A stretch of DNA of 64,000 nucleotides, taken from Deltaproteobacteria bacterium. GTDB lineage: Bacteria; Desulfobacterota; Desulfarculia; Adiutricales; Adiutricaceae. The DNA lies in the NCBI GenBank assembly GCA_031264185.1, contig JAISEL010000006.1, forward strand, positions 1 through 64,000. Direction: 5' to 3'. Position 1 is the stretch's first letter; every line of letters begins with the position of its first letter. The translations under genes and the position numbers were made by a program. Of the stretch, positions 94 to 41,530 are shown in pieces. The notes under the pieces are model-generated. The model was given only the letters and a program-made list of their open reading frames with translations, ran no database searches and was not told the DNA's origin.

Positions 94-1722
94 TTACATT
101 ATTTTAATGACACACCCTACAAATATCTCCCCATTTGGAGCCTCAAGAGCGCAATCAAGAATGCCGCCGCCGATAGATTCCTGCTTTAAAAAATTCTGTT
201 TTGTTAAATTAAATACAAAATAAAATAATGTCATGTAATAAGCTTCATAAGAGAGATGGAGAGAATAGGAAAAAGAGGCCATAAAACTAATAAATTCTTT
301 GGCAGCCTTTGAAGCGTCTTTTTCCAGAATGGCACGTAAAATGAGTTTGGCTTTGCTTTCTAATAAATCCGTAAATGCTGCTATATTAGGCATGCCAGGA
401 TAATTTGAGTGCAAAAGATAAATTATAAGAGACCGTTCGACTTCAAAGTTAGGAATTTTAAGCGAGTAGCCGGTGGGATCTTTAGTGTAATCTGCCTTAT
501 CAACAGTTAAATAGCCGGTCTGGAAGGCTAAAGCCTCAGGGGTAAATTGATGACCAATATCAATGGCATTAGAAATGTCATTGATAGCATTGTTTTTGTC
601 AAAAAAATTAAAACTGACTTTGTTCTCTTTTAATAATTTGATCAAAAAAGTAGGAGAGCCTGATTCATACCAAAGACTTTTTTCTGAAAAAATTCATTAA
701 GGACCATAGACCCGGGTCTCTCCGTCCCATGAGTAACCGTCATAAAAGCGCCTGATTTTATTTAACAAATCAGTTTCAGTGGACACCGGCAGCAATTTAT
801 TTTTTTAAGCAAAGCTTCTAAAGTAGGGGTAAAATAATCCTTAAAATAGAAAACCAGTTCTTCTTCGGTAATGCCACAGATATTAGAGTAATATGAATCA
901 AATGTTATGTCATTCAAATTATTTAGTTCTGAAAAAAGATAATTTTTTGTGAATTTGGACACTCCAGTAATAAAAACGAAGAGCAACAACTTAAATTTTG
1001 TTTTGATAACACCATAAAATGACTTTAATAAAGCACGCATCTTATCTGCCAAATCATTGTTTAAAATATTTTTAACAATCGGAGCATCATATTCATCTAT
1101 AAAAAGTACAATATTTACATTATATTTATCGGAAAGTCCTGAAATTAAACTTTCAAAATATTAACTCGGCTGATAATTATGATAGATCAAATACTCCTTA
1201 TTATTTACAGTTGATCACTGTATAATAATTTTCTAGCCATACTACAAATAGGCTATTGAAATTGCATAAATTTTTGAGTGTGCTAAAGACTGAAGAAACA
1301 AAGGATAAACTCTTTTATCATAATTATCCGCCGGGGTAATAAGAAGAATGGACAGTGTCGGATATTGAAAATCCCTCTTTTTAAGCGATACTTGTCAATT
1401 TAGACATAAGATAAGATTTAAAGGTTTCAAGATCCGGGGCATAAACATCACCAAAACTAATATCAATTACAGGATAAGGCTGCAAATTATAAGAAGTACT
1501 GTCAATCCACAGACACCTTTAAAAAGCTCTCGTTGGCCCTTGAAAAGGCAGTCTAGAGTGTCTGTAAGGAGGGTTTTCCCGAACCGGCGGGGTCTAAAAG
1601 AAAATTCAGAGAACTGGATGTAATCAAATTATGTTATGAATATACTGAGTCTTATCAACATAAATATGATTATTATTGATCAATGTCGTGAAATTTGGAT
1701 TATGATTTGGTAAAAATTTCAT
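94..1722 (-). pseudogene. Broken AAA-ATPase / PD-(D/E)XK (DUF1703) protein
   Basis: This is a decayed member of the 'predicted AAA-ATPase' family (PF09820 with C-terminal DUF1703/PF08011). The start at 1722 reads MKFLPNHNPNF followed by IYVDKTQYI, the usual N-terminus. The Walker A region reads RPRRFGKTLLTDTL (about 1590-1560) and the Walker B-like LFIDEYDAPI lies near 1100-1075. The C-terminal nuclease part (94-645) starts at LLKENKVSFNFF and contains ALAFQTGYLTV and YSLKIPNFEVERSL. The frame is broken by an in-frame TGA after YIHNII, a stop after SKLTSIA, several frameshifts and a 183 bp inserted element at 1159-1341. The function of the family is uncertain; proposals include defence or mobile-element roles. 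The assignment is strong and the gene is clearly non-functional. Confidence 0.85.
1159..1341. repeat. MITE copy 1, 183 bp variant with TA duplication
   Basis: The two ends are inverted repeats of the element family seen at 9736, 12121, 13881, 14260 and 41304: left TATTAACTCGGCTGATAA, right TTATCCGCCGGGGTAATA. The interior is longer than in the other copies and unlike them. The element interrupts the ATPase pseudogene. Deleting it with one TA joins SDTVHSSY directly to FESLISGLSDKYN in one frame, which is what the family shows ahead of the Walker B strand. The left end has drifted, so this copy looks old. Confidence 0.85.
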
Positions 1723-2139
1723 CTTAAAGACCAAAAAAGGAGTTGAAAGTTAGGGATCATGCTAAAAAATATCACTTATAGTATTATTATTTATGATATC
1801 AAAATACCGGTTGACTGTCAAACCCTCCGTGGCCTGTGGCCGGCGGACGATTGCTGCCTGCATTGAAGCCAGAAGTTCCGCTGTAAGGATAGGCTCTTTC
1901 GGGCTACTCGCCTCAGAATGTTTTCCGCCGAAGTCAGGTTCCGGCCCGTCTCTCAAACCTGCCCGTTGATTGTCTTGGTCCCAATCTTTAAGAGGATTGG
2001 CTTTTGAAGCCTCCCGTCACCTGTCTTAACCTGCGGACAATGCAGTAGGCTGGTTACCTGCTTACATGGTCAACCCAGACCTCATAATAAATCATCTGTT
2101 AGCTGAGGTGACTGCAAGGCCGATAAGAGGCACTTTTTG
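1723..2139. other. Gap with an unassigned open stretch
   Basis: An uninterrupted minus-strand reading stretch lies at about 1762-2005, ending NNNTISDIF. It has no good start codon with a ribosome binding site and I do not recognise the protein. It may be the tail of a lost gene. Nothing else is supported here. Confidence 0.3.
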
Positions 2140-3321
2140 TCAGCTGTACAGGAGATATTTCTTAATATCCCGGCGCCATTTTTTAAGTTCCCTGTCCGAA
2201 GCCTCTATAATCTCCCGAGCCGGGCGTCCGTCGGCCAGCTCATTAAAAATACTCTCCCGGCCTAAGATGAGATCTATTGGTCTGCGGGTGTATTCATACT
2301 CATAGGGAGGCTCTTTTAAACGGAAATCCCTGCTCCAGAATTTTAAAATTATCTCCAGGCAGGTCAGAGAAGTCAGATAGGGCTCAAAATTATGGTTCAG
2401 AGGATGGATTTCCAGTCCCCCGCAGTATTGGCCCTCCCATTTGTGAAAAGTGGGCTGAAACCAGACTTCCCGGAAAACTGCCCCCGGAAGTTTACGGCTG
2501 CGCAGTTCTCCGGCTAAAATTTCAGGGTCAATAAACGGGGCTCCAAACATCAGAAAAGGTTTGGCCGTGCCCCGGCCTTCGGAGATATTCGTGCCTTCCC
2601 AGAGGACCTGGCCTGGATAAACCCAGGCTGTTTCAAAAGTTGGCATATTAGGTGACGGCATGACCCATGGCAGACCTGTTCCCGGAAAATATCTGTCTCT
2701 CGTCCAATGGCGGCATGGAATAACAGACAGGGCGGCCGGCTTTTCCAGTTGGCTGTTAAAAAAAACGGCCATTTCGCCCATGGTCAGACCGTGGCGCATG
2801 GGCATAGGATGGCGCCCGACAAAGGACCGGCAGCTTATGTCCAGGAGGTTTCCTTCGAAGGTCAGTCCGCCTAAGGGATTGGGCCGGTCTAAGATAACAA
2901 TTTCCAGATCACTGTCCCCGGCTGCTTCCAGACACAAGGACATGGTCTGGGCAAAGGTGTAGACTCGTGTGCCTATGTCGGTCAGATCGATCAAAAGAAC
3001 ATCTATATCCTGAAGCATGGACGGCTCGGGCTGTCTCAGGTCAGAGTAGAGACTGAAGAGAGGCCGGCCGTCTTTCAGGCGCCCGTGACCGGACTCAACC
3101 ATATTGTCTTGTTTTTCTCCTTTAAAGCCGTGCTGGGGAGAAAACACAGCTTTAATCCGGCCAGGCAAATACTCATCTAAATAGCTCAGAGCGTGACGGT
3201 AGCCAGGTCCGATTGAGGCCTGATTGGCCAGAAGGGCTAAAGAGCGCCCTTTATAGGTCCGGCTGTGTTCGGCTAAAAAGATTTCCAGTCCGGTTTGAAC
3301 AGGGCTTAAATCTGGTTTCAT
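2140..3321 (-). CDS. DUF1343 / NamZ-like exo-beta-N-acetylmuramidase
   Basis: The 393-residue product belongs to the DUF1343 family, whose characterised member NamZ removes terminal N-acetylmuramic acid from peptidoglycan fragments. Family landmarks visible are LALLANQASIG near residue 30, FSPQHGFKGEKQDN near 60, LIDLTDIGTRVYTF near 110, ILDRPNPLGG near 145, the MPMRHGLTMGEMA block near 170 and YPGQVLWEGTNISEGRGT near 235. The length is normal for the family. There is no obvious signal peptide at the annotated start, so it may act on recycled muropeptides in the cytoplasm. It is the last gene of the cbiB-cobD-fpg operon and lies 7 bases after fpg. Family assignment is firm; the exact substrate is inferred. 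Confidence 0.85.
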   Translation of the reverse strand: MKPDLSPVQTGLEIFLAEHSRTYKGRSLALLANQASIGPGYRHALSYLDEYLPGRIKAVFSPQHGFKGEKQDNMVESGHGRLKDGRPLFSLYSDLRQPEPSMLQDIDVLLIDLTDIGTRVYTFAQTMSLCLEAAGDSDLEIVILDRPNPLGGLTFEGNLLDISCRSFVGRHPMPMRHGLTMGEMAVFFNSQLEKPAALSVIPCRHWTRDRYFPGTGLPWVMPSPNMPTFETAWVYPGQVLWEGTNISEGRGTAKPFLMFGAPFIDPEILAGELRSRKLPGAVFREVWFQPTFHKWEGQYCGGLEIHPLNHNFEPYLTSLTCLEIILKFWSRDFRLKEPPYEYEYTRRPIDLILGRESIFNELADGRPAREIIEASDRELKKWRRDIKKYLLYS

Positions 3322-3328
3322 GTAGCAG

Positions 3329-4171
3329 CTACTTCTGGCAAAAGGGACAATAAACTGTGGTCCGGCCGCCGACTCTGGTTTTTAAAAGTTTTTCCCCGCA
3401 AAACGGGCAGGGCTGACCGGCCTGACCGTAGGCCTTATGATGATTCTGAAAAGAGCCGGCTCCTTGGGGAGCCGTATAACTGGACACGGTCGAACCGCGG
3501 CATTCTATGGCCTGGGTTAAGATTCTTTGGGCTTCAGCCTGAAGGGTCCTGGCCTCATTTAATGTTAAGCTCATGGCCGGTCTTAAGGGAGAAAGTTTGG
3601 CCGCCAGCAAAGTTTCGTCTGCATAAATGTTCCCGAAACCGGCCAGAACGCTCTGATTAAGGAGAACAGCTTTGAGTTGTCCTCGGGAGGCGCTCAGGAG
3701 CCGGTGGTAGTCCTCGGGTCCGGCGCTCAAAGCATCCGGGCCCAGATTTAAGCCGGCCAGAAATTCGTCCATCTCTCCAGGGCCGAAAGCCCGGAGGCGC
3801 CCGAACTTCCTGGTATCCTGATAAAAGAGAGTCTCATCTTTCTGGGGGGAGTTTTTTTTGATTTTAAAGGCAGCGTGACAGTGGGGCGGCCAGCTTTCGG
3901 GATTTGAACCGGGCCAGAAGTCGCAAAACTTGAACTGGCCGGTCATTTTCAGGTGAATAAGCAAATTATGGCCTCCGGCCAGATCAAAGACAATCCTTTT
4001 GCCCAGACGGCGGACTTGTAAAACCTTTCGTCCGGTTAAAAGAGAAGAGAAAGATGACAGGTCTGAGGCCACAATGGCCGGGTAACTGACCTGGACCTCG
4101 GCGATTTTATGCCCCAGGGTCTTTTGAGCCAGTTCCCTGGCCATGGTTTCGGCTTCCGGCAGTTCAGGCAT
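3329..4171 (-). CDS. mutM: Formamidopyrimidine-DNA glycosylase
   Basis: The 280-residue product is Fpg/MutM, which excises 8-oxoguanine and other oxidised purines and nicks the abasic site. The mature N-terminus PELPEAET carries catalytic Pro2 and Glu3. The H2TH region includes VLLNQSVLAGFGNIYADE. The C-terminal zinc finger has two Cys-x2-Cys pairs, CPFC and CPFC, separated by a typical linker with TRVGGRTTVYCP. Length and domain order are complete. The start overlaps the end of cobD by 8 bases, so translation is probably coupled. Its place in a cobalamin operon is incidental as far as I can tell. Confidence 0.95.
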   Translation of the reverse strand: MPELPEAETMARELAQKTLGHKIAEVQVSYPAIVASDLSSFSSLLTGRKVLQVRRLGKRIVFDLAGGHNLLIHLKMTGQFKFCDFWPGSNPESWPPHCHAAFKIKKNSPQKDETLFYQDTRKFGRLRAFGPGEMDEFLAGLNLGPDALSAGPEDYHRLLSASRGQLKAVLLNQSVLAGFGNIYADETLLAAKLSPLRPAMSLTLNEARTLQAEAQRILTQAIECRGSTVSSYTAPQGAGSFQNHHKAYGQAGQPCPFCGEKLLKTRVGGRTTVYCPFCQK

Positions 4172-5228
4172 GAAATTCCGCCAATAGTGATTTTAAGATT
4201 TGTATTTCATCTTCCGGCCGGACAGCCAACCGCAGCCAGCCTGGCCCCAGGCCCCGGAAATTTTTGGCATCCCGGACTAAAAGACCGCGAGAGAAGAAAA
4301 ATTCAATCAGCTTTTTCGTTTCCTGGTATTGATACTTGAAAAGAAGAAAATTGGCCTCCGAAGGGAAAGGCTGACCGAATTTCTGGAGGACCCGGGTCAG
4401 CTTGTTTCTCAATGAGGAAATCAATTTAATAAACAGAGCCCGGTTCTTTGGCATTGAGAAAAAATAAAGTCCGGCCGACAGGGCGGTTGAACTTAAAGGC
4501 CAAGGTCCCAGCTGAGTCCAGAGTTTTTTAATCAAAGCCGGGGAAGAGGCCAGATAGGCTATCCTGAGTCCGGGGACGGCCATGATCTTGGTTAATGATT
4601 TTAAAACCACCAGAGATTCATGCTTTAAAATTTCCGGAACCAGAGATGAGGCAGTGGTAAAGTCAATAAATGCTTCATCGACCACCAGATAGATGCGGCG
4701 TTTTTTAGTTTCGGCCAGAAGTTTCTTTAAAATCATCTCGGGCACTAAGCGCCCGGTTGGATTGGCCGGATTGGCCAAGATGACGGTTTTGGGGTTGAGA
4801 GAAAATATCCGCTCCAAAGTCTCTTCGGTAACCAGAAAATCGTCCGTATCTTCGGTCAGGACGTACGCGAAATTACGGCCGGCTGATTTTAAAGCCGCTT
4901 CGTACTCGGCAAAAGCCGGAGCCACAATTACTGATAGCCCCGGGTCCAAGGTTCTGGCTAAAAGAAAAATATGGACTGTGGAGCCGGCGCTGGGCAGAAA
5001 ATGGTCCGGGGAGATTTGGTAGACTTCTCCGACAATTTGAGTTAAAGACTGGGCTTTTTCTTCCGGGTAGTGGAGAGTTCGTTCAAAATCCAGAAAAACA
5101 AATTCTTTAAGCCCTTCCAGTTGACCAAAAGGATTTATGTTGGCCGAGAAGTCGGTAATAGTCTGCCAGGGTCGGTTCAGAGCCTCGGCCGCCTCAAAGA
5201 TCCGGCCCCCGTGAGCTAAGTAATCCAT
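4164..5228 (-). CDS. cobD: Threonine-phosphate decarboxylase (PLP enzyme)
   Basis: A 354-residue fold-type I PLP enzyme of the histidinol-phosphate aminotransferase group. The N-terminal YLAHGGRI and ITDFSANINPFG motifs are typical of CobD, which makes (R)-1-amino-2-propanol phosphate for the nucleotide-loop arm of cobalamin. The Schiff-base lysine is Lys214 in VVLKSLTKIMAVPGLR. ILANPANPTGRL and YLVVDEAFIDF are the other cofactor motifs. It lies 23 bases downstream of cbiB, whose product attaches the same aminopropanol arm, and this context supports CobD over HisC. Confidence 0.9.
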   Translation of the reverse strand: MDYLAHGGRIFEAAEALNRPWQTITDFSANINPFGQLEGLKEFVFLDFERTLHYPEEKAQSLTQIVGEVYQISPDHFLPSAGSTVHIFLLARTLDPGLSVIVAPAFAEYEAALKSAGRNFAYVLTEDTDDFLVTEETLERIFSLNPKTVILANPANPTGRLVPEMILKKLLAETKKRRIYLVVDEAFIDFTTASSLVPEILKHESLVVLKSLTKIMAVPGLRIAYLASSPALIKKLWTQLGPWPLSSTALSAGLYFFSMPKNRALFIKLISSLRNKLTRVLQKFGQPFPSEANFLLFKYQYQETKKLIEFFFSRGLLVRDAKNFRGLGPGWLRLAVRPEDEIQILKSLLAEFHA

Positions 5229-5251
5229 GAAAATCTCTTAATGTGTCAAAA

Positions 5252-6253
5252 CTAAAAGCCCCAGCCCCAAGGCGTTCTGGAGCATGAATGAAAAAGGATA
5301 AGCTCAATTATCATGGCGCTCAACAGCATAAGAAAAGAACCGACCTGAATGAGGCGTTCGGCCTTCCGGACCAGTTCGGCCGAGGCCGGATTTCCGGAGC
5401 TGCCGATGACCGGTTTGTCAACAAACAGGCCGCCGTAATAACCGGGCCCTCCCAACTGAACTCCCAGAGCTCCGGCCATGGCTGCCTCGGTCTGACCGGA
5501 ATTGGGGCTTGAATGGAAACGGCCTTCTTTTCTCCATAAGATCCAGGCGTTTTTATAATCACCGCCGACAGTTCTGGAAGCTGAGATTAAGATTAACGCT
5601 GCCAGCCTGGCCGGGATATAGTTTAACACATCATCTATTCTGGCTGAAAATCGGCCGAAAAATAAATAAGTCGGATTCTTGTAGCCGACCATGGAGTCAA
5701 GGGTGTTTATGGCTTTGTACATCCAGGCCAGAACCGGACCGCCTACGGCCAGGTAAAATAAAGGCGCCACCAGACCGTCAGAGAAGTTTTCAGCTAGAGT
5801 CTCAATTTCGGCCCGTCTGATGTCTGTAATATTTAACTGGGCCGTATCCCGGCCGACAATCCAGGACAGAGCCTGGCGGGCCTGAGGGATATCCCCGCAG
5901 TCCAGAGCTTGTTCCACCCGCTGGGTATGGTCCAAGAGATCCCGGAGACACAGGAGACTGTAAATAAAGTAAAGGCCGATTAAATACCATAGGGTCTGGG
6001 ACATTCTGGCCGAGAAATGGAGAAAAATCCAGACCAGATAACCGGTTATTGAAACAGCGGCCAGAGCCATAAGCGTTCCGGCCCAAAAAAGAGCCCGATC
6101 GGAAGGCGGCCCGGAGCGGCTTATAGTTTTACGGAGTAATTTTTCCAAACGGCTGATTAAGGCCCCGATTACCCTAACCGGGTGAGGCCAGGTCTGGGGG
6201 TCGCCCATCAGCCAGTCGACCACATAGGCCACAGCAGTAATCAGGGCTGGCAT
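5252..6253 (-). CDS. cbiB: Adenosylcobinamide-phosphate synthase
   Basis: A 333-residue integral membrane protein of the CbiB/CobD family, which joins aminopropanol (phosphate) to adenosylcobyric acid. The start MPALITAVAYVVDWLMGD followed by PQTWPHPVRVIGALI is the family signature, and LNITDIRRAEIETLAENF with SDGLVAPLFYLAVGG covers the conserved central region. SPNSGQTEAAMAGALGVQL is the conserved late loop. Several hydrophobic segments span residues 60-110 and 155-180, with another at the C-terminus. It opens the operon cbiB-cobD-fpg-DUF1343. Naming is confusing because Pseudomonas-type nomenclature calls this protein CobD. Confidence 0.92.
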   Translation of the reverse strand: MPALITAVAYVVDWLMGDPQTWPHPVRVIGALISRLEKLLRKTISRSGPPSDRALFWAGTLMALAAVSITGYLVWIFLHFSARMSQTLWYLIGLYFIYSLLCLRDLLDHTQRVEQALDCGDIPQARQALSWIVGRDTAQLNITDIRRAEIETLAENFSDGLVAPLFYLAVGGPVLAWMYKAINTLDSMVGYKNPTYLFFGRFSARIDDVLNYIPARLAALILISASRTVGGDYKNAWILWRKEGRFHSSPNSGQTEAAMAGALGVQLGGPGYYGGLFVDKPVIGSSGNPASAELVRKAERLIQVGSFLMLLSAMIIELILFHSCSRTPWGWGF

Positions 6254-6389
6254 GGAAAATAAACCTTATAATGATCCTAAATCCAAAGGGGTTGGCTTAT
6301 GGGTTTTATATCACAATAGTGGACTGGCTGCCATTGCCACCGGGGGATGGTTTTTTGACAGGAAAAAAGTAGGGCCAGGTCTTTTAAAT

Positions 6390-6436
6390 AAAAAAGCGGC
6401 CTGAAGACAGCCAAGCGGTTCTTCCGTCGCTTTTTT
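6390..6436 (-). terminator. Intrinsic terminator, usable in both directions
   Basis: An AGCGGCCTGAAGA arm pairs with TCTTCCGTCGCT and is flanked by A- and T-tracts. It separates the decayed TonB receptor gene from the cbiB operon. Confidence 0.75.
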
Positions 6437-6493
6437 AGGGCCTCTAAAGGGCCGGACTTAAGACGAGAAATTTTAAATTAAAAAATCAAAGAT

Positions 6494-8605: not shown

Positions 8606-9196
8606 TTGTTTCTACTTACTGAATCTTCAATAATCAAATGCTTCCTCGAAAAAAAGGAAAACCGATAAATCCCGGTATGCCCTGCCCATTGGCATAATCT
8701 TGAAAATAGCCGTAGATGTTTCAAAAGAAACGCTGAAAACAGAGTAAATATATGTTGCATGCTATAGTCGTAGTATAAAAATATGCAAATATATATGTAA
8801 AGATAAAATAACAAAGAATATTGATACGCACGAATTAAGGACAAAAAAGGCCGCACCCGGCCAGTGGTTTATCTGACAGGAAGCGGCCTTCGTGACCGAA
8901 TATTTTTATGGCTGATTGAGCCCTATAGCCTAAGAGAGCCGGAAACAAAAATTTACGGCACCGTAGGGTGACCGGAATTCCTGGGTGCTAAAATATATTC
9001 AGATTCCCTGAGCATTCAGCCAACTGATCAGGCTAAACTGGTTCGGCTCCTGAAGAAAAATTCGAAACCTGATTGAATTGACCTGATTATTTCAAGGGCC
9101 AGTCAATTTGTTAAGAAAAAAACGCCGAGTCGGCAATTCAGAAACAATCAGTCCGGTGTAAGCAGGTACTGGCGGAGACTATCCGGGCAGAGGCGT
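8606..9196. other. Leader region of the dead receptor gene
   Basis: There is no gene here. The region holds the attenuator-like element at 8843-8897. About 290 bases upstream of its end is a weak minus-strand promoter-like pair, TTGCCG (9136-9131) and TAACAA with 17 bases between. Otherwise it is AT-rich. Confidence 0.4.
8843..8897 (-). promoter_or_regulatory. ACGAA-loop hairpin plus terminator (leader element A)
   Basis: Read on the minus strand, GGTC-ACGAA-GGCC can form a four-pair hairpin with a five-base loop. Its 3' arm GGCC also begins the terminator GGCCGC...GCGGCC followed by six T. The two structures are mutually exclusive, as in an attenuator. It is upstream of the decayed TonB receptor and matches elements at 18111, 18789, 19417 and 23226. 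Confidence 0.7.
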
Positions 9197-9872
9197 TTAA
9201 TCGAACCACTCGTTCTCCAGAGCGGCGTTTACTGAGTCAAGGTCAAATTTTTCAAGATCATATGTTTCGTCTTCGCGGCACCCAACGTATTCTTTCATTC
9301 CCGCGTACGCTTCATGGCTGGGGTCAGTTAATATATCGCAAAATTAAAATAGCCGAATCGGCCGCCAATGTCTTCAGGCGGACAGGCTCTGGCTCCGGCC
9401 AGACAGGCGACGGTATCTTCGTCAAGCACCTTTATGACATCCCTGTCTTTGGAACGGGGCTGATATTGACAGTCTTCCACCGTGATTTTGTGCTTCCAAT
9501 TGTCGCCAAAATCGTAAACGTATTTGAATATAGCCTTTTCGATTTATCAAATCACGCAGGAGGTATTTTTGGGAATCCTGACAGTCAGTCACTGGTCCTG
9601 AGGAGAAAAAGTTACCGTATATTTTAAACCCATAAAGATGATAGTTAGCCCAGTCCATGACAATCTGAATGACTTCATGGAGGCTTTCGAGGGAAATGTC
9701 ATTCGGTACGACAAATCGGCGCCAGATTGCGGACATATTACCCCGGCGGATAATTTTGATACAAACAAATCATCATAAGGTAAAATCAATGAAGAAATAG
9801 ATTATCATAATAATCCGCCGAGGTAATAATACCAATCAGCTGGATTTTTAACCTTAAGTGATGGTGATTCAT
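9197..9872 (-). pseudogene. pRiA4b ORF-3 family gene, copy 1, broken
   Basis: A member of PF07929 (plasmid pRiA4b ORF-3-like; also annotated as IS1096 TnpR-type passenger). The start at 9872 reads MNHHHLRLKIQLIGI. A 93 bp MITE (9736-9828) follows, and the gene then resumes at MSAIWRRFVVPNDISLESLH. Removing the element and one TA gives one continuous frame through IGIMSAIWRR, the family's signature. Two further frameshifts follow, at about 9530 and 9325. Between them ITVEDCQYQ and VACLAGARACPPEDIGG are intact family motifs, and the natural C-terminus VNAALENEWFD ends at 9197. The family's molecular function is unknown. Confidence 0.85.
9736..9828. repeat. MITE copy 2, 93 bp type
   Basis: Terminal inverted repeats are TTACCCCGGCGGATAAT and ATAATCCGCCGAGGTAA, flanked on both sides by TA. 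The interior is nearly identical to the copies at 13881 and 41304. It has no coding capacity of its own. It is inserted near codon 15 of a pRiA4b ORF-3 family gene. Confidence 0.92.
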
Positions 9873-10011
9873 GTCAGTCCTCAAAATTTGGAAGCGCTTA
9901 TCAGGTCCTGATACTGGAAAAAGCTATGCCCGGCGGTTCAAAAGGCGGCAGTAGAAACCGGGGAAGCGCGGGTGATTATGGTCTATTTATGCATATTTAA
10001 ATCATTCACGC

Positions 10012-10626: not shown

Positions 10627-10699
10627 TTTAGCTGCCTCAAATAGTCAGATTCCAGGACTATGGGCAAAATAGCATTTTGGTTTATGCTTTTTAGCATAA

Positions 10700-11285: not shown

Positions 11286-11436
11286 GCAGTAATCCGGGTT
11301 AAGGCATTTTAATTCAATAGCTCTGGTCGGCCATTATATTTATTCCGGTTAATCTGAAATAGCCTGATTAACAATAGGCAAGTTTGATGCGGTAAATGGT
11401 TTCAATTTCCGGCTTGACTTGGTTAAGCCTTTTGAT

Positions 11437-12087
11437 TTAGCTATCTTGTCCAAAGGCCCGGAAGTACGGCATTTCTAATATACCCCTAAGGTGCCAATTA
11501 ACTGAGTGCAGTGAAAATTCTTCACTGTCATAGGTTTTGAAATCAGGATCGTTTGGGTCATCGCCTCCATACCACTCCACATAATGTTCGTGATTGGGGT
11601 GATTGAAGTCTTTAATGGCAGCGCAAAAATTGTAATATCCCCAGACTCCGCCAACGTCTTCCGGAGGACAGGCCCGTTTGCCGCTTATACAGACCACAGG
11701 ATAATCGTCCAGATCTTCAATGATCTGTTTTTTCTTCGGGTTTGGAGTATAGTCAGTGTCTTCGATCGTAATTTTGTGCCGCCAATCGTCACCGAAATCG
11801 TAGATATATGTGAAACTTTGGCCTTTAAAGGGGAACAAATCTTCAAGAATGTATTCTTTGGCCTCTAAGTCCCGGCCATACCCAAATCCAGCAGAATCAT
11901 CATTGGAGGAGTATAATTCTTCGGCGATTCTGAAACCATAAAGATGTATTCTTTCCCAACCCATGGCCTTTTGAATGATTTGGTGTAGTTTTTCGAGGTG
12001 AACATCGGCGGGCACAACAATCCGGCGCCAGATGGGTGGCTTGATATGCATGATAGATATTTTAAGGCAGTAGCTACGTTTAGGCAT
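11437..12087 (-). CDS. pRiA4b ORF-3 family protein, the only intact copy
   Basis: A complete 216-residue member of PF07929. It begins MPKRSYCLKISIMHI and carries PPIWRRIVVPADVHLEKL and HQIIQKAMGWERIHLYGF. YIYDFGDDWRHKITIEDTDY is mid-protein, and RACPPEDVGGVWGYYNF lies near residue 140. The C-terminal half is acidic with many aromatic residues. The biochemical function is not established; related proteins occur on plasmids and as passengers in IS1096-type elements. It is flanked by four dead paralogues, and a MITE lies 34 bases upstream of its start codon. That element may carry or disrupt its promoter. Confidence 0.85.
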   Translation of the reverse strand: MPKRSYCLKISIMHIKPPIWRRIVVPADVHLEKLHQIIQKAMGWERIHLYGFRIAEELYSSNDDSAGFGYGRDLEAKEYILEDLFPFKGQSFTYIYDFGDDWRHKITIEDTDYTPNPKKKQIIEDLDDYPVVCISGKRACPPEDVGGVWGYYNFCAAIKDFNHPNHEHYVEWYGGDDPNDPDFKTYDSEEFSLHSVNWHLRGILEMPYFRAFGQDS

Positions 12088-12120: not shown

Positions 12121-12223
12121 TATTACCCCGGCGGATAATTATGAGAATCTATTTTCTTCGGGTTCACCTTGACTTTCGCGTATTTAATTTTATCTATGGT
12201 CAAAATTATCCGCCGGAGTAATA
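12121..12223. repeat. MITE copy 3, 103 bp type, upstream of the intact gene
   Basis: The ends are TTACCCCGGCGGATAAT and ATTATCCGCCGGAGTAA, flanked by TA on each side. The interior matches the copy at 14260 in the opposite orientation. This is the only copy in an intergenic position. Confidence 0.9.
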
Positions 12224-13280: not shown

Positions 13281-14001
13281 TTAAGGCCAAATGCTTTGGT
13301 ATGTTCTCTCCAGGACCCCCTGGAGATTTTTGTTGGCGGACTCAAGGTTAAAACTGTCGCCGTCAAAGTTCCGATGATATTCCAATTTCTCCCAGATCCC
13401 TGATTCAGGATCTACCTGGTGTTTGGCGGTATTGGAACCTTTGTTGACCTCATTAAGCATGTTATAGCCGATGTGACCGCCGATGTTTTCCGGAGGGCAG
13501 GACCGTCGGCCAGCCAAGCAGGCTACCTGATAATATTGCAGATACTTAGTGGTCTTTTTCTTTGGGTCCGGCTTATAGTCAGTGTCTTCCACCAGAATTT
13601 TGTGGCGCCAATCGTCCCTGAAATCGTAGACATCATAGAACTTCTCGCCTTTGGCGGTGACCAAATCTTTGAGGCAGTAATCTTTGGCATCCAGGGAAGG
13701 ATCATCATCAAAGTCCATACGCAGAGGACTGGTGTAATTTTGGGAACCGATATCAAAATCATACAGATGACAATGTGACCAACCCATGGCCATCTGAACT
13801 ATGTCGTGGAGTTTGGCCAGGGTAACATCGGCGGGTACAACCATCCGCCGCCGGATTGGCGGGACAATCCGCGTTAGAGTTATTACCCCGGCGGATAATT
13901 TTGATACAAACAAATCACCATAAGGTAAAATCAATAAAGAAATAGATTATCATAATAACCCGCCGAGGTAATATTTTAAGACAATAGCAACGATCGGCCA
14001 T
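13281..14001 (-). pseudogene. pRiA4b ORF-3 family gene, copy 5, interrupted by a MITE
   Basis: The original start at 14001 reads MADRCYCLKI. The element at 13881-13973 then introduces a TGA. After it the gene continues TLTRIVPPIRRRMVVPADVT and LAKLHDIVQMAMGW to a normal end at 13281. In silico removal of the element plus one TA gives CLKITLTRIVPPIRRR in one frame. A TTG at 13934 inside the element could restart translation and yield a 217-residue protein with a foreign N-terminus (ILPYGDLFVSKLSAGV). The body of the gene is otherwise intact, so the insertion is recent or the chimaeric product is used. Confidence 0.85.
13881..13973. repeat. MITE copy 4, 93 bp type
   Basis: It has the same ends and interior as copy 2, with flanking TA on both sides. 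It is inserted after codon 10 of pRiA4b copy 5. Its minus-strand reading supplies an open frame running into the host gene. Confidence 0.92.
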
Positions 14002-14259
14002 GACATTACCTGTATTGAACTAAATTAGTCAATAAAACGCAAATTATTTAAAATTAATGATTTCAAGTTCTCGCTTGACCAGCATAAACGGTTACCTAAA
14101 GCTTTACTGGGTCGAGGCGAATTCCAAACATAAGAATTCATCCTTTATTCCCTTGATCCATTTGGCTCCGCCGCTGAGAAATATCGTTTCCTTATATTGA
14201 CCATATACATTCTGTAATGCGCATGCGAAAAGAATTTTTAAATTCTGAGCATTCCTCAA

Positions 14260-14362
14260 TATTACTCCGGCGGATAATTTTGACCATAGATAAAATTAAA
14301 TACGCGAAAGTCAAGGTGAACCCGAAGAAAATAGATTATCATAATTATCCGCCGGGTTAATA
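14260..14362. repeat. MITE copy 5, 103 bp type
   Basis: The ends are TTACTCCGGCGGATAATTT and ATTATCCGCCGGGTTAA, bounded by TA at 14260-14261 and 14361-14362. It lies inside the ISKra4-like transposase remnant. Confidence 0.92.
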
Positions 14363-14843
14363 TAAGAAGTATATTTTCTTTTGGTTATTTTATGATATAT
14401 CTCTCTAAATTTCGGCGGTTAACATAAGAGCGAATGCTATCTGATGAAAATACCAGGCCAAGTTTATTTTCATGCCAGGATTGTCCGGCATCAGTTCTTT
14501 GTCTCGTGTTAAACATAGCTCCATCTGTTTCTATAGATAACACCATCTTTATATTCCTAAAATTATGCTTCATTTTTAAAAACCCATAATATGCCTCCTC
14601 GGCTTTCTCACATTCATTCTTAAAGGCGATTCTGGCAATGATGTTTGTGTAACGACCAAAATTGTGGCCGCACACACATTAGGACAGAAATCATTTCTGA
14701 GAGTTTCTTCTGCCAAGTTTGTAATATGTATTGCTGCGCCCTTACAGGCAGTCAATAGCATGGCTTCAGCCGTCATTTTCGCAGGAAGAGCAGACAAGCC
14801 TAAATATTCATCTTTTGGCGCTATTGCCGTGACACCCCCCAAT

Positions 14844-30513: not shown

Positions 30514-30522
30514 GGTTACCTC

Positions 30523-35046: not shown

Positions 35047-35306
35047 GGCAGACCTCCTAGTACTGGGGGCGGTCAGGTCAATTACCGGCAGCGGAGTAAC
35101 AGAATAAACCGTTTTTGGCCTCAGTTTTATTGAACCCTAAAAAATTTCAGATATTACTAAACTATTATAGCATAGACAAAAAAACCGAAGAAAGTATTTA
35201 TTTGGGGACGGGTAAAGGAGAGAAGCAGGTGAATTTCAGCGGTTTTAATCAAAAATAGATGATTTAAGACCAGGACTGGCGGATAAACGGCCGGGATTTT
35301 TTGGGA

Positions 35307-35831
35307 CTATTTTTCGGCGTTTTGGAGAATGTTTTTGAAGTAATATTTTAGAAGATCCAAAGGGATGATTTTATTGGTCGTGTCTCCGGAAATCAGGTGA
35401 TTATAAACCTGACGCCAGGGAGTATCGTCGTTTAAGGTTGAATTAATCATGATAATAGGCTCAATTTTGGAAAATTTCTTCCAAAAAGAAATCATAAATT
35501 CCTCTTCTTTAGGGGAGCGAAAAAGAATTTTGGGTATTGAAATCCGGTAAACCCCGTTTTCGACCAAATAGCCGTGGATCAGCCCGGTAACCTCTTCAAG
35601 TTTCTGGCGATTTAATGCCTTAAAGACAGAATTGACGCAGGGGCCGGAGCGCCAGGCTTCAACCGGATCTTCAAAGAGAGGGTAGTCAAAGGTAGCTAAA
35701 AACCAGCCTTGGGCATAGTAGAGGAGCTTTTGAAGTTTCGAAGGTGACAACTCGCTGCGGTCATAGTGGTTTTGCTCTATAAGCCAGTTGGCTACAGCCA
35801 CAGCGGAATTAGTAACAAGTGAATCAGCCAT
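35307..35831 (-). CDS. Panacea (DUF4065/SocA-like) domain protein
   Basis: A 174-residue protein from the ATG at 35831, preceded by TTAGGTG. It carries the Panacea/SocA-like pattern AVANWLIEQNHYDRSELSPS then LQKLLYYAQGWFLA near residue 35, FEDPVEAWRSGPCVNSVF near 58 and DDTPWRQVYNHL near 140. Panacea domains act as antitoxins for many toxin types or as proteolysis adaptors (SocA). No toxin gene lies next to it, which is unusual for this family; the neighbours are the 1507-residue protein and a UPF0016 gene. Confidence 0.8.
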   Translation of the reverse strand: MADSLVTNSAVAVANWLIEQNHYDRSELSPSKLQKLLYYAQGWFLATFDYPLFEDPVEAWRSGPCVNSVFKALNRQKLEEVTGLIHGYLVENGVYRISIPKILFRSPKEEEFMISFWKKFSKIEPIIMINSTLNDDTPWRQVYNHLISGDTTNKIIPLDLLKYYFKNILQNAEK

Positions 35832-36044
35832 TTTTGTCACCTAAATTGGTGTGTTTCTGATATATTGCCACACCCTAGGCCGTAAGTCAAGGTAAAATTT
35901 ATCTCTTTATTTAAAAATCGCTTGAAGCAAATGACTGGCCTGAACAGATTGAAGCCGCCGTCAAAGGGATCGGATTTTTCCCAATTATGCCGGGACGTGT
36001 TAGAATAGCTAGTTTCAGTACTGTCTGTTCTTAGGAGTTTAAAC

Positions 36045-36335
36045 ATGGAATTTAAAGCCATGACACCCATATTTTTAAGTGTTTTACTGGCCGAACTGGG
36101 TGATAAGACCCAGATAGCCGCTTTGTCCTTTACGGTCGGCGGGGCGGCCGGCAAGTGGGAGATTTTTGTGGCCGCCAGCGGGGCTCTGGTCTTTTCCACC
36201 TTAATTGCTGTCCTTGCGGGTGATTTTATCGGCCGATTCATTTCTCCTCATCTCATGAAGCTTTTAGCCGGCCTGGCTTTTTTAATTATGGGCAGCTATT
36301 TCATTTATCAGGCTCTGGGAACGAAAGGGGCCTAG
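36045..36335 (+). CDS. UPF0016/GDT1 family half-transporter
   Basis: A 96-residue membrane protein with three hydrophobic segments and the family signature Glu-Leu-Gly-Asp-Lys-Thr at residues 17-22 (LAELGDKTQIAALSF). UPF0016 proteins export or import Mn2+ (or Ca2+). Most have two such repeats; this single-repeat form must dimerise or pair with another protein. The radical SAM gene starts 1 base after its stop, suggesting a shared transcript. Confidence 0.88.
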   Translation: MEFKAMTPIFLSVLLAELGDKTQIAALSFTVGGAAGKWEIFVAASGALVFSTLIAVLAGDFIGRFISPHLMKLLAGLAFLIMGSYFIYQALGTKGA

Positions 36336-36336
36336 A

Positions 36337-37329
36337 GTGCTGGCCTACCGCCTTGGTCCCCAGAGCGATCCATTTAATTATATATTCAGTTCCGACAGGT
36401 GGCTGAAAGACTACGATCCGGTCGGACCTTTTCCCATGTGGGTTAACTTAGAGCCGACCAATGTCTGTCAGCTGGAATGTTTTTTCTGCTCCAGGCAGTT
36501 ATCGGACCGGCCTCTGGGCTACCTGGATTTGGATCTGGCTAAAAGCCTGTTTTCGGAAACGGCCCGATATCCCGGCGCGGCTGTCCGTCTGACCGGCTGG
36601 GGCGAACCGCTTCTCCATCCCCGGATAGCCGAACTTACGGATATGATTAAAGGCTTTGGCCTGAAACTTAAGATTTACACCAACAGTATGGCCTTAACTC
36701 CCGCTCTGATGGAGCATTTTATTAAAATAGGGGTCGATGACATACAGTTTTCTCTCCAGGGGCTGACTCCAGAGCAGTATGAGTTTAACCGGGTCAAGGC
36801 CAGATACTCCCAGGTCGAAGGGAAAATTATTATGGCCTCAGAGCTTAGGGGAGATAAACAGAGGCCTTTTTTGAGTGTCCTGACCTCGGTTCTGGCCGAC
36901 GAACTGGCCCAGGCTGATCCTGTCGAATTTACCCAAAAGTTATTAAAATATGCCGATAAAGTGGCTATGGATCTGACTAATTTGAATTTTGTGAGCGGAG
37001 AGGCCCGGGTCAAGCCGTTTTTGGGCCGCCAATCCAAAGGTTTGACCAGAGGTCTGTGTGTGGACGTCTTTTTGTCTTTGGAAGTCAAGTACGACGGTTC
37101 AATACAGTTCTGCGGCCAGGATGCCCGGGGGCTGCCGGAACATACCATCGGAAAGGCGCCTGAAATGACTTTACACGAGGCCTGGCTCAGTCCGGCCATG
37201 GAGGCCAAGAGGGAGGCGGTGGGCCGTCATTTGGGGCATGAGAATTATACGGTTTGCCGGGACTGCTACCATAATACCGATAAATACGAGCTTTTTAAGA
37301 ATTTAAGCAGTTCCAAGGTGTTTAAGTGA
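36337..37329 (+). CDS. Radical SAM protein with SPASM-like C-terminus
   Basis: A 330-residue protein with a GTG start. The radical SAM cluster motif is Cys44-x3-Cys48-x2-Cys51 in NVCQLECFFCSRQL. RLTGWGEPLLHP is the following GGE-like motif. Near the C-terminus, QFCGQDARG and YTVCRDCYHN supply further cysteines for an auxiliary cluster, as in SPASM proteins. The substrate is unknown. The stop overlaps the next start (GTGA), so the GNAT protein is translationally coupled and may act on the same product. Confidence 0.85.
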   Translation: MLAYRLGPQSDPFNYIFSSDRWLKDYDPVGPFPMWVNLEPTNVCQLECFFCSRQLSDRPLGYLDLDLAKSLFSETARYPGAAVRLTGWGEPLLHPRIAELTDMIKGFGLKLKIYTNSMALTPALMEHFIKIGVDDIQFSLQGLTPEQYEFNRVKARYSQVEGKIIMASELRGDKQRPFLSVLTSVLADELAQADPVEFTQKLLKYADKVAMDLTNLNFVSGEARVKPFLGRQSKGLTRGLCVDVFLSLEVKYDGSIQFCGQDARGLPEHTIGKAPEMTLHEAWLSPAMEAKREAVGRHLGHENYTVCRDCYHNTDKYELFKNLSSSKVFK

Positions 37330-38288
37330 CTGAGGCCAAACGGCAGGCCAGCGCCCGGATACTGGCCGGGACATTGACCCTTCTGGCCAGGGAGGAAGAG
37401 GGTCTGCCCAGTCCCTTTGCCCTCTGGAACAGTCCGCTGACCCCGGGCTTTATTAAAGAGGCGGCTTTAAAGGTGGCCAGCGGCTTGGCCGGGGCGGTCT
37501 GGGCAGATGACAGCTATCCGGCCAGAGGCTTGTTGCTGCGTCAGGAGCAGGCTTTAGAGACATTGATATTAGGTCAGAAATCGGTCCGTCTGGCCGGTCC
37601 GTGGCTAATGGATCCCGAACCGGCCGACCGCCAGAGAAGAACAGCTCATTTGGCCCGCAAGGCAGCTGATCAGGAGCAGGGACCGGTTTTTATGGCCATT
37701 AAGACTGTCCACGATCCGGCCATTATCCGGGGTTTTGCCGAAGCCGGTTTTCAGGTGGCCGAGATTAGCACCCAGTTGGCCGGAACTTTAAACGGGGATA
37801 TAATTCCTGAGTTCCCTTTTGTCAGACATCCCGGGCTTTTTCTGAAAACCCCCGAACCAGAGGAAGGGGAAAAATGGCTCAGGGCTTTAGGCGAGCTGTT
37901 TTATGACGGCCATTATCTCCACGGACCATATCTGCCTCCTGATTTCTCCTGTAAACTGTGGCAGGCGGTCACTAAAAATCAGCTTTACCAGGGTCAGCCG
38001 GTTTTATTTTTGTGGGAAGAGTCCGGCCAGCGTCCGGTGGCTCTGGCCATGGCTGCGGTCAGCGGCCGGGAAGCCCGCCTTTCGGTTTTGCACGTGACCG
38101 AAGACAGGCGCGGTCAGGGGCTGGGAAAATTATTGCTGCTGGAACTGGTTCGGGTCTTAATTAAGAGGCAAGTTACTTCTCTGGCCTGCGAGACGGCTTC
38201 TTACAATCTGCCGGCTTTGGCTCTTTATCAGGCCATGGGATTTAGGATCATGACGCCTTTGATCACTTTCCATTTTCGGAAACCTTAG
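37326..38288 (+). CDS. GNAT-family acetyltransferase with N-terminal extension
   Basis: A 320-residue protein. The last 110 residues form a GNAT domain with VLHVTEDRRGQGLGKLLLLE (acetyl-CoA P-loop) and ALALYQAMGFRIMTP. The N-terminal 200 residues have no motif I recognise, though they contain FMAIKTVHDPAIIRGFAEAG, reminiscent of a second, degenerate GNAT fold. It is coupled to the radical SAM gene. The acceptor is unknown. Confidence 0.78.
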   Translation: MTEAKRQASARILAGTLTLLAREEEGLPSPFALWNSPLTPGFIKEAALKVASGLAGAVWADDSYPARGLLLRQEQALETLILGQKSVRLAGPWLMDPEPADRQRRTAHLARKAADQEQGPVFMAIKTVHDPAIIRGFAEAGFQVAEISTQLAGTLNGDIIPEFPFVRHPGLFLKTPEPEEGEKWLRALGELFYDGHYLHGPYLPPDFSCKLWQAVTKNQLYQGQPVLFLWEESGQRPVALAMAAVSGREARLSVLHVTEDRRGQGLGKLLLLELVRVLIKRQVTSLACETASYNLPALALYQAMGFRIMTPLITFHFRKP

Positions 38289-38362
38289 ATGAGGTCATAA
38301 AAATTTACAGCGGCCGACTGACCGTTTGATAAAGATTTCAGGCCGCCCCCAGAGAGGATATA

Positions 38363-39229
38363 ATGGAAAATCAGTACTACGAACACCCCGGAAAAATCAA
38401 GGTCTTCACGGTCTTAAAAAGGGCTGCATCGGCGCTGACCGGTAAATTTATGCTCATAGCCGGACTGACTCTGATTGGGTTTCTGCCGGTGGCTCTGAAC
38501 ATGCTGACTCCGTATTTTAAGTTTCTCCTGCTTATCCCGAGCATAATATTAGGTTTTTTGATGCAGGGCTCCGTGGCTATGGTTATGGTCAATGATTATC
38601 AGGAAGAGGAAACGAAAATTCTGGAATGCTTAAAAAACGGCCTGGCCAGAGTCGTGGTGGTGGTTAAAATCATTTTTTTAACCTGGCTGATTATTATAAT
38701 TCCAGCGATTTTGATTGGCGTTGGGGCCGCCATGGCCGCCGCCAGGAGCGGAACCGGCTATATGCTGCCGACGGTGCTGATTTTGGGGGGCTTGTTATTC
38801 ATGGTCTGGTTTTTTCTGGCTTACGGCCAGGCCTACCTGCTCTGTGTGGCCGCTCAGTTGGGAGCGCTGGAATCATTTAGTGTCAGCAAAGTTTTGACTA
38901 AAGGCCACAAGGCGGGCATTTTTTTGACTTTTCTGGCTATGACTATAATCAGCACGGTTGTTTACACTGCAGGCGCAGGCCTTCTGGCGATTGTCTTTGT
39001 GGCCCCTGGAACCGATCTTCAGTATATTGTATCCGTCATAAGCTCCAATTCTAATTTCAATGCTATCATCAAAAATTCTGGCTCAATACCGATCTTTCTT
39101 TTTTTACTGTCTTTGGTCCAGTGTTTAGTCAGGATAGTGTCCACCACAATTATAGGGGCTTTGTATGTGGAACTTTTAATTTGCCAGCAGGATAAAGATT
39201 TGGCTGATAAAAGCGAGGTTTTCGCCTAG
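38363..39229 (+). CDS. Multi-pass membrane protein, paralogue of the next gene
   Basis: A 288-residue inner-membrane protein with about six hydrophobic segments (residues 30-48, 52-75, 95-120, 130-158, 190-215, 245-270). The motif GALESFSVSKVLTKGH recurs in the next gene as GAVESLKASRALTYGN. Proteins of this layout resemble DUF975/YciC-like membrane families, but I cannot name one. The ATG at 38363 follows AGAGAGGATATA. It is 9 bases from its paralogue. Confidence 0.65.
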   Translation: MENQYYEHPGKIKVFTVLKRAASALTGKFMLIAGLTLIGFLPVALNMLTPYFKFLLLIPSIILGFLMQGSVAMVMVNDYQEEETKILECLKNGLARVVVVVKIIFLTWLIIIIPAILIGVGAAMAAARSGTGYMLPTVLILGGLLFMVWFFLAYGQAYLLCVAAQLGALESFSVSKVLTKGHKAGIFLTFLAMTIISTVVYTAGAGLLAIVFVAPGTDLQYIVSVISSNSNFNAIIKNSGSIPIFLFLLSLVQCLVRIVSTTIIGALYVELLICQQDKDLADKSEVFA

Positions 39230-39237
39230 AGGCTTCT

Positions 39238-40101
39238 ATGTCCGAGCTGTTCAAAATACCAGTTGACGGTAAAATTGACCGGGTTCCCCTAATTTGGGCC
39301 TTGAGCCGGGGGTTTAAAGCCCTGATTAACTGTCAGCCGGCCTTAATCCTGATGGGTCTGGTCAGCTTTGCGGCCAGTTTTCTGGGGATGTTTGATTACA
39401 TTCCTGAAATAGTCAGCGGTCTTTTGGTGTTGACCGTAACTAACGCCATGGATGGTTCAGCGGCCTTGGCCATGCTCCAAAAGTACCGGACTGGACTCAT
39501 AAACATTAAGGAATGTTTTTCAAAAGGCTTTTCAGCTTTTGGCCGCATCATATTGCTGAGTATGATATTCGGGCTGATATTTTATACACCTCTGGCCATT
39601 ATCATAGGTGTGGCCTTTTATTCATTCAGTTTTTTTGTCCTTTTAGCCGGGGTTATGGTCATTTTAGGCGTAATATTTCTGTGCTGGTTTCTGTCGATCT
39701 ATGGTCTGGCCTTACAGTTTTGCGTGGGGCACGGCTTGGGAGCGGTGGAGTCTTTGAAGGCCAGCCGCGCTCTGACCTATGGCAATCGGTGGTTCATGGC
39801 CAAAGGCATCTTCTGGGCTTACCTTATTTACGGCTCTATATTTTGCGGTCTGATTGCGGTGGCTATAAGTTCCTGGTTTTCAGGCTTGTCGTACAGAGAA
39901 TTTTTCTCTTCTCTGATGTCCCCGAAGTTCTTATTGGAACTTCTTGACGGCAGCATTTGGTTCTGGGCGTCTTTGGCCTTAAGTTTTGCCCAGTTTGTAG
40001 CCGGAACAGTTCACAGCGCTCTTTTCGGCGGCCTGTACGTTGAACTTTTGATTTCCAGGGAAAAATCGGATATTGACCTAATGGGCCGGGTTTTTGAATA
40101 G
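39238..40101 (+). CDS. Multi-pass membrane protein, tandem paralogue
   Basis: A 287-residue membrane protein with the same plan as its upstream neighbour, including a shared C-terminal pattern (ALFGGLYVELLISREKSD versus IIGALYVELLICQQDKD). The pair probably arose by tandem duplication and may form a hetero-oligomer. An inverted repeat AGCGGAGTT/AACTCCGCT lies just after the stop (40100-40140). Confidence 0.65.
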   Translation: MSELFKIPVDGKIDRVPLIWALSRGFKALINCQPALILMGLVSFAASFLGMFDYIPEIVSGLLVLTVTNAMDGSAALAMLQKYRTGLINIKECFSKGFSAFGRIILLSMIFGLIFYTPLAIIIGVAFYSFSFFVLLAGVMVILGVIFLCWFLSIYGLALQFCVGHGLGAVESLKASRALTYGNRWFMAKGIFWAYLIYGSIFCGLIAVAISSWFSGLSYREFFSSLMSPKFLLELLDGSIWFWASLALSFAQFVAGTVHSALFGGLYVELLISREKSDIDLMGRVFE

Positions 40102-40129
40102 CGGAGTTAAAAAAAGACAGCGAAGATGG

Positions 40130-40615
40130 GAACTCCGCTAAAAAGGGCTGAAATGTCCAGCCTTCCGCCTGGCAAAGTTCCGCTAAATTAAAGCACCTTA
40201 CCTCCAAAGCATTGCAGATTTTTGGTATTTCGGAGGCATCCCGTTTGTTTTCTTCTGCTACGACAGTCAGAGCGTGGAGTTTTCCGAAAGCAATTAAAAC
40301 AGGGTCAGCTGGGTTTGGGTTGTGCCAGGCCTAATAAGGCGCGGGTGCTTTTTCAGCATTTTCTCGGCCAGCTGCATTACTTCATCCGTCGGTTTTTGCG
40401 AAATAATCCCATGATTTTTGAGCCATTCTTCTATTTCCGGATCACCTTTGATCTCCCCAGTAACTTCAATGCAGGTTATAATGTGGCCACAATTAATTAA
40501 TGCATCAATTTTACTCCACAAATTTTGGCGAATGCATCTTCTATAGGCCTGAGCTGATTTTTGCGGCAGAAGAGAAGAGGAATCTATTATATACCTTGCT
40601 TCTTTTGGTTCAGCG
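40130..40615 (-). pseudogene. DUF4411 (PIN-like toxin) pseudogene
   Basis: The N-terminal part reads ARYIIDSSSLLPQ, the family's start, but without a usable initiation codon and with an in-frame stop 14 codons upstream. It continues INCGHIITCIEVTGEI and GDPEIEEWLKNHGI to PRLIRPGTTQTQ. A frameshift follows, and DPVLIAFGKLHALTVVAEEN then KICNALEVRCFNL complete the PIN-like core in the other frame. DUF4411 proteins are putative toxin nucleases normally paired with an upstream ImmA/IrrE-type gene, whose remains lie directly upstream here. Confidence 0.8.
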
Positions 40616-40691
40616 CAGGTTATCGGTTACTGAGTCCAAATAACTATTAATATGGGTAAATTGAATTGAACATTTAAAATCATGCTAATAT

Positions 40692-41530
40692 CTAATTGCT
40701 TAAATTGTCATCGCTATATAGCATAAGAATAGATTTAGACAGATAATTGCTGTTAAAATCATAAATTTCTCCTGGCATATTGCGGGCATAAGAAGTTGGT
40801 TCGGATATATCCTGCTTCTGTTTTTTTGTCTTAAAAAAAGCAGGTAAAGAAAAATAATCGTTTTTGGAAATATAATTTAAATCACACAACCTCCTGGCTG
40901 TAACAGTAGCGCGGACAGACAGCTTTTCCGATAGTTCAGAAATAATTTCGGCATCAAATACAGTGTAATTATTGGAATTCAAATAGTTCACAAAATGATC
41001 TTTAGGAACCAGAACTTCTCCAGCTATTTTGTTGCAAAAGACTTCCTCCTGGGAACCGGGCCTTGCGGTAAAAAGATCGCAGCAAACTGCTGTATTGTTT
41101 TTAAGGATATGAACCAGTTCATGGATCATTGTAAATATTTTAGCTTGAGTCTTGTCTTTGGAGTTGATACCAAATATTAGGTAATATATCGGATCATAGA
41201 TGGCAACGCCTCTGGGACAATTTTCATCTTTAGGAGTCGGGAAACATTGGACAAAAATACCCTTATTTTCAATTTGCTGACTTAGGTATAGATAAAATTT
41301 TCTTATTACCTCGGCGGATTATTATGATAATCTATTTCTTTATTGATTTTACCTTATGGTGATTTGTTTGTATCAAAATTATCCGCCGGGGTAATATATA
41401 GCCGCAATGAATCTGTTTATCCCAATTTAAATTGAAAAAACTAATAATTAATTTATTGAAAGGTTGGTAAGCGTCATCTTTAAATGCTGAATTAAATGGT
41501 TCAATCGCGAGTCTAATTTCCGGGCGTAAT
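40692..41530 (-). pseudogene. ImmA/IrrE-type metallopeptidase gene interrupted by a MITE
   Basis: The open part carries the zinc motif His-Glu-x2-His in FTMIHELVHILKNNT (about 41150-41105), with GIFVQCFPTPKDENCPRGVA before it and EEVFCNKIAGEVLVPKDHF after it. The element at 41304-41396 cuts the gene. Removing it with one TA gives HCGYIRKFYLYLSQQIENK in one frame. The upstream start is unclear. Together with the DUF4411 relic this was a toxin-antitoxin-like pair. Confidence 0.78.
41304..41396. repeat. MITE copy 6, 93 bp type
   Basis: The ends are TTACCTCGGCGGATTAT and ATTATCCGCCGGGGTAA, with TA on both sides. The interior is nearly identical to copies at 9736 and 13881, although it lies 27 kb away. 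Confidence 0.92.

Follow-up and report, generated by a model that had tools for sequence, protein, structure and literature searches.

RUP of Streptococcus pneumoniae is described, in passages of two published accounts, as a 107-bp repeat whose IS630-type ends match those of the insertion sequence (IS) IS630-Spn1 in the same genome, which inserts at TA, is present in 108–110 copies and often lies near pseudogenes (PMC2229807, PMC3049150). The relevant part of the first account, a review, describes RUP copies inserted in several IS families and raises the question of whether RUP limits transposases (PMC2229807); a later analysis, in the passages concerned, finds the association between RUP and ISs unsupported and puts the excess near pseudogenes down to tolerance (PMC3049150). 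Here we describe a family of short repeats in a Deltaproteobacteria bacterium (GenBank assembly GCA_031264185.1; 4.4 Mb in 166 contigs), first noticed in positions 1 to 64,000 of contig JAISEL010000006.1 (the window, 64,000 nucleotides in all). These repeats are almost certainly miniature inverted-repeat transposable elements (MITEs), that is, non-autonomous derivatives of a 1209–1210 bp IS630-family element, of which the same genome has damaged or cut-off copies, or of close relatives of this element.

Repeat copies and their TA borders

A scan of the window with the end pattern TTACYCCGGCGGATWAT, allowing up to three mismatches, returned 14 matches, compared with a mean of 0.46 in shuffled sequence (none of 100 shuffles reached 14). 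Twelve of them pair into six elements, and the remaining two (38678 and 58898) are unpaired matches with three mismatches. The scan thus recovered all six copies that a reading of the sequence alone (the sequence-only reading) had proposed to share inverted ends and TA borders, and TA indeed stands on both sides of each. With both TAs counted, the single copy of the 183-bp class (179 bp plus two TAs) occupies 1159..1341 on the minus strand, inside an AAA-ATPase_like gene. The three copies of the 93-bp class (89 bp plus two TAs) are found at 9736..9828 (plus strand) inside a pRiA4b-type gene, at 13881..13973 (plus strand) near the start of another pRiA4b-type gene, and at 41304..41396 (minus strand) inside an ImmA/IrrE-type (Peptidase_M78) gene. 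The two copies of the 103-bp class (99 bp plus two TAs) are at 12121..12223 (minus strand), 33 bp upstream of the start of a pRiA4b-type gene, and at 14260..14362 (plus strand) inside an ISKra4-like transposase gene. Five copies therefore lie in coding sequence, as had been claimed, and the sixth just upstream of an open reading frame (ORF). The three interiors that had been distinguished also hold up as separate classes, with the end regions as their only common part.

The family extends throughout the genome. Searching with a 17-base end at up to three mismatches gave 201 forward and 189 reverse matches (approximately 390), against 7 and 10 (17 together) in a reversed control; by simple arithmetic from these end counts, the genome holds roughly 185–195 elements. 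At least 40 full copies of the 93-bp class exist (40 of 230 candidates were scored), 18 of which are identical to the query and 22 of which are 98–99% identical; the 18 identical copies suggest recent activity. The 183-bp class is represented by at least 40 full or near-full matches with 87–100% identity (40 of 226 candidates scored) and the 103-bp class by at least 33 full-length matches (40 of 230 scored). Of the other scored matches to the 103-bp class, one spans positions 1–97 and six cover only 18/19–103, which fits what the right end of the IS would give.

TA is present on both sides of 106 of 107 distinct copies from this genome, while TA makes up 5.7% of the dinucleotides in the window. 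These copies form a non-random sample, whose loci came from searches with the ends, the classes and the transposase, and four occurrences with less than 60 nt of flank were dropped. An earlier parse of 96 copies (94 with TA on both sides, one AA/TA and one TA/CA) included five copies from relatives, the AA/TA one among them, and is superseded by the parse restricted to this genome; both parses demanded TTA at the element tips and at most four mismatches to the 17-base end.

Empty sites and uninterrupted relatives

Empty counterparts of filled sites, to which the sequence-only reading had pointed as a check on insertion, are found in the same genome and in related ones. For 15 of 106 sites, the sampled loci of this genome contain a paralogous stretch that matches both flanks over 40 nt or more; 11 of these are ungapped at the junction, and ten have TA exactly there. 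Together with the borders of the 107 copies, these ten sites bear out the proposed termini and the TA target duplication. At the AAA-ATPase site, an uninterrupted paralogue in the same genome (L247) is 83% identical over 201 nt, with no gap and a single TA. Two AAA relatives in this genome (81% and 77%) are free of stop codons and span the whole joined protein query.

The ImmA-type gene has matches in 12 genomes besides its own, among the 60 searched. In the alignments with five relatives, those from L236 (same genus, 48% identity), L237 and L238 run without a gap through the junction, while the local alignments of L239 and L240 begin at the junction and 30 residues past it, respectively. Matches to the ISKra4-like sequence occur in 28 of the 60 genomes, its own included, and the best relative is uninterrupted, with 46% identity over query positions 15–122 and the junction near position 80. 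These uninterrupted paralogues and relatives confirm insertion. The pRiA4b-type neighbour of the gene with the copy at 13881 was also considered as an empty site and left uncounted: its ungapped alignment (74% over 121 nt) extends about 20 nt past the junction, and another alignment, of another stretch, has a one-base gap.

An IS630-family element with the same ends

Full-length elements with the ends of the repeats and flanking TAs, the existence of which had been anticipated, are present in the same genome at three loci: L032 866–2075 (1210 bp), L036 1130–2338 (1209 bp) and L047 793–2001 (1209 bp). IS630-family elements are typically about 1.0–1.3 kb long, and the length of 1209–1210 bp, with inverted ends, fits this range. 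At a fourth locus (L033), the transposase frame is open but runs off the contig. This cut-off protein matches NF033545 (transpos_IS630) with 192.9 bits, the cut-off being 100, as well as PF13358 (DDE_3; 2.8e-33) and HTH_33 (2.9e-17). The motifs FADESG, VVDN and SPELNPDE are visible in it, and they may contain the catalytic D, D and E residues; by hand count, 36 residues separate the last D from the E. The transposase profile, the TA target and the matching ends agree with the likeness to IS630/Tc1-mariner elements that was noted at the outset. Seven contigs end inside the 1209–1210 bp IS, a pattern expected when an assembly breaks at near-identical copies. We found no name for this IS in literature searches, which were not aimed at its sequence.

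DDE_3 has 61 matches in this genome. Of 80 copies scored from the 93- and 183-bp classes, eight are inside such a match or at most 250 bp away from one, while a uniform distribution would give 0.77. The eight are spread over six contigs, with two pairs sharing a contig (C110 and C75). The excess may reflect only a tolerance of insertions in dead, AT-rich and IS-rich DNA. One 93-bp copy (in L048) is inside this very IS or a close relative, since its joined flanks align without a gap to the L033 element with 86% identity. Separately, a copy of the 183-bp class in L038 (1245–2661) holds a nested, TA-flanked insertion of an IS630-type element with different ends (TTACCACGGCACGAAACTCTGAG).

Origin of the MITE classes

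The repeats combine the features of MITEs: they are short, numerous and mostly non-coding, and have a target duplication and inverted ends in common with a transposase-bearing element. For one subtype the derivation can be read directly. The L032 element contains TTTTGA at positions 17 and 1127, and a deletion from repeat to repeat leaves 100 bp that differ by five mismatches from a real copy in L277. A length of 100 bp is found in 11 of the 31 copies of 98–100 bp, and the 99-bp copies of the window are close variants of this subtype. On the left, 23 bp of the 93-bp class align with the L047 element (21 identical), as do 35 bp on the right (29 identical); the 183-bp class matches the left end of the IS with 70–73% identity over about 115 columns. 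These two classes are probably derived from diverged relatives of the known parent.

By analogy with the IS630/Tc1-mariner family, the DDE transposase of the IS would recognise the approximately 24-bp ends (TTACYCCGGCGGATAATTWTGATA), cut out either the IS or a MITE and insert it at a TA, which repair would then duplicate. The 100-bp subtype of the 103-bp class arose through a deletion that ran from a TTTTGA repeat in the left end to another near the right end and removed the transposase gene. What is known of the same family also makes it likely that one transposase moves all three classes.

Arguments against the derivation and competing readings

Several observations weigh against the derivation of these MITEs from the 1209–1210 bp element by TA-targeted transposition. 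All three full-length copies carry stops or frame changes, and the 54 transposase matches include no autonomous copy that is both complete and undamaged. The TTTTGA pair is present in only one of the three (L032); L047 is without the left repeat and L036 without the right one. A middle part of approximately 31 nt in the 93-bp class does not align with the parent, and in a global alignment of the 183-bp class with the parent, clear similarity is limited to both ends, most of the interior being unaligned. One of the 107 copies has TA on one side and CA on the other. As for the empty sites, four of the 15 paralogous ones are gapped near the junction, and at one well-matched site (L085) the paralogues show TG rather than TA. 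Finally, the open-frame test gives the TA reading only weak to moderate backing, as its controls are high. Across 99 MITE sites of this genome, a spanning frame of at least 100 codons was obtained at 30 sites when one TA was left, at 21 when one base was left, at 24 when none was left and at 2 when the element was kept; with at least 150 codons, the respective numbers were 18, 9, 8 and 1. A first run over 92 sites gave 30, 19, 20 and 4 at 100 codons or more; it had taken in four sites from relatives (L125, L130, L131 and L134) and five of IS length, and its counts were unchanged at the 88 sites without relatives.

It is conceivable, if unlikely, that the MITEs are moved by the transposase of another IS630 subgroup, or by different helpers for each class. 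The 61 DDE_3 matches are of several kinds, including the differently ended IS630 element nested in the 183-class copy of L038, and the MITE classes have mainly their ends in common. However, the complete elements with these ends among the loci examined are all copies of the 1209–1210 bp element, and the 100-bp subtype matches a direct deletion product of that element.

We consider it very improbable that the repeats are coding inserts of the kind represented by the Rickettsia palindromic element or the 107-bp Correia type, translated in the frame of the host gene and tolerated. An insertion of the 100-bp subtype lengthens a gene by 102 nt, which is divisible by three, and 12 of the 31 copies of 98–100 bp have at least one stop-free frame; one 100-bp copy (L115 1929–2028) adds 34 stop-free codons within an open frame of 227 codons and may be an in-frame fusion. 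On the other hand, it is the only one of the 31 that lies within a spanning open frame (at least 25 codons on each side), and stop-free frames are absent from all 40 copies analysed in the 89-bp class and from all 30 in the 167–179 bp class. For the window copies this reading is refuted, as net insertions of 91, 101 or 181 nt shift the frame in all five genes. Removal at the level of RNA or translation, as intron-like sequences or bypassed hairpins in functional genes, is hardly credible: two copies that were folded do form strong hairpins (z of -6.5 and -3.5) and taking out an element with one TA does restore the local frame, but hairpins follow from the inverted ends, other lesions are present in three of the five genes, copies also lie in transposase remnants and inside one another, and transposition predicts a TA-flanked IS with matching ends, as is present here.

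Interrupted genes in the window

With transposition as the preferred explanation, the state of the interrupted genes can be considered. Minus one TA, the net insertions of the six copies are 181, 91, 101, 91, 101 and 91 bp in order of position; none is a multiple of three and each shifts the frame, so that the frame test is not trivial. The claim that removal restores the frame in five genes stands insofar as the flanks share one frame in all five coding cases once the element and one TA are taken out; in three of the five the repair is local only. Long joined frames result only for the second pRiA4b-type gene (13281..14020, minus strand, upper end approximate; 215 residues) and for the ImmA/IrrE-type gene (40695..41544, minus strand; 253 residues). 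The notion that removal yields whole genes was rejected for the other three, in which other lesions remain. In the AAA-ATPase_like gene (tested part 816..1441, minus strand, upper end approximate), a stop remains 13 codons ahead of the junction, and the frame changes further up. The ISKra4-like transposase remnant (14107..14600, minus strand) has an additional in-frame TAA about eight codons before the junction, and it reaches only 21 bits with NF033572, the cut-off being 205. The remnant of the first pRiA4b-type gene (9424..9926, minus strand, ends approximate) matches only half of its family, with PF07929 covering only positions 3–86 of 173. The MITEs of the window thus sit partly in genes that were decaying anyway, because these three carry other lesions.

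It had also been proposed that the joined flanks give the expected sequence of each family. This is true across the junction for the AAA-ATPase_like, ImmA and ISKra4 sequences, while the two pRiA4b-type genes reach past it by only about ten and five residues of PF07929. The match of PF09820 in the AAA-ATPase_like sequence extends about three residues beyond the junction, and in the Pfam search of the joined ImmA protein, the Peptidase_M78 match stops short of it. Pfam matches were accordingly set aside as weak proof of the junctions, with few residues beyond them, and relatives were used instead.

Between positions 9424 and 14020, pRiA4b-type (PF07929) genes are clustered on the minus strand; Pfam confirmed three of them. 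One is an uninterrupted ORF of 216 residues (11437..12087, minus strand) that starts at 12087, with the 12121 copy 33 bp upstream, and the ORFs between the clustered genes look like further remnants. AAA-ATPase_like genes are hugely expanded in this genome (at least 65 matches among 93 candidates), and a relative of the same family (G033) has 171 candidates.

Distribution in other genomes

Among 96 genomes including its own, with at most nine candidates scored per genome (9 of 82 in G017), no full-length match to the 93-bp class was found outside its own genome. Partial matches consist of an end only in G005, a genome of the same genus, an end and one interior stretch of 33 nt in G013, and one stretch of 43 nt in G023. 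The 17-base end, with at most one mismatch, matches 8 of 98 genomes, its own included. Related ends adjoin TA in IS630-type elements of Bacteroidetes, Chlorobium-type and Geobacter-type genomes (for example, L138, L140 and L144), with transposases 38–41% identical; 13 of 68 loci were inspected closely for this comparison. Since related ends occur in several phyla, they mark a wider IS630 subgroup.

Two relatives contain elements of their own. In G013, a 1282-bp element (L125 236–1517) and a 333-bp element (L131 1061–1393) have related ends and lie between TAs; they look like another parent and its deletion derivative. G017, which belongs to another genus of the family, has four elements of 88–89 bp (L124, L130 and L134) with related ends and other interiors, three of which have TA on both sides. 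These few loci offer a lead and suggest repeated MITE births within the bacterial family. A more speculative idea, which we regard as possible but rather doubtful, is that one IS630 clade of this bacterial family keeps spawning short MITEs through slippage between short repeats, both here and, separately, in G013 and G017, and that these MITEs prefer IS630 transposase genes as landing sites, shutting down their source.

Significance

MITE insertions account for five broken genes in the window, and an IS630/MITE family now has defined ends and a defined target. A full-length element, the product of a one-step deletion, and filled sites with their empty counterparts can all be seen in a single genome, which makes it a clean natural example of the birth of a MITE; such MITEs may inactivate their helpers. 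For annotation, the case is a warning that a gene broken into fragments in this genome may owe its state to a MITE rather than to a sequencing error.

Comparison with known systems

The family is a clear example of an already known kind of element. ISY100 of Synechocystis resembles the parental IS, by description, as an IS630/Tc1-mariner element; its biochemistry has reportedly been demonstrated, while the corresponding steps here are deduced. The MITEs of Candidatus Thiomargarita nelsonii offer another parallel, with an uncultured bacterium, MITEs spread over many contigs and interrupted genes; the passages at hand report no likely parental IS family for them in ISfinder (PMC4853749), whereas our genome contains a full-length element whose ends match. 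Correia/NEMIS repeats of Neisseria are similar by description in being short, with inverted ends of 24–26 bp, terminal TA and size classes; the passages that deal with them name no parental IS (PMC2229807, PMC3049150). The closest parallel is RUP with IS630-Spn1, and the present arrangement appears to work in the same way, a likeness drawn from descriptions. According to the passages concerned, both cases involve an element of about 100 bp with the ends of an IS630-family element of the same genome, a TA target and insertions into IS genes; RUP is described there as intergenic, whereas many copies here lie inside genes, and the hosts differ (PMC2229807, PMC3049150). What sets the present family apart from RUP is that one subtype can be traced to a deletion and that empty sites are found within the same genome.

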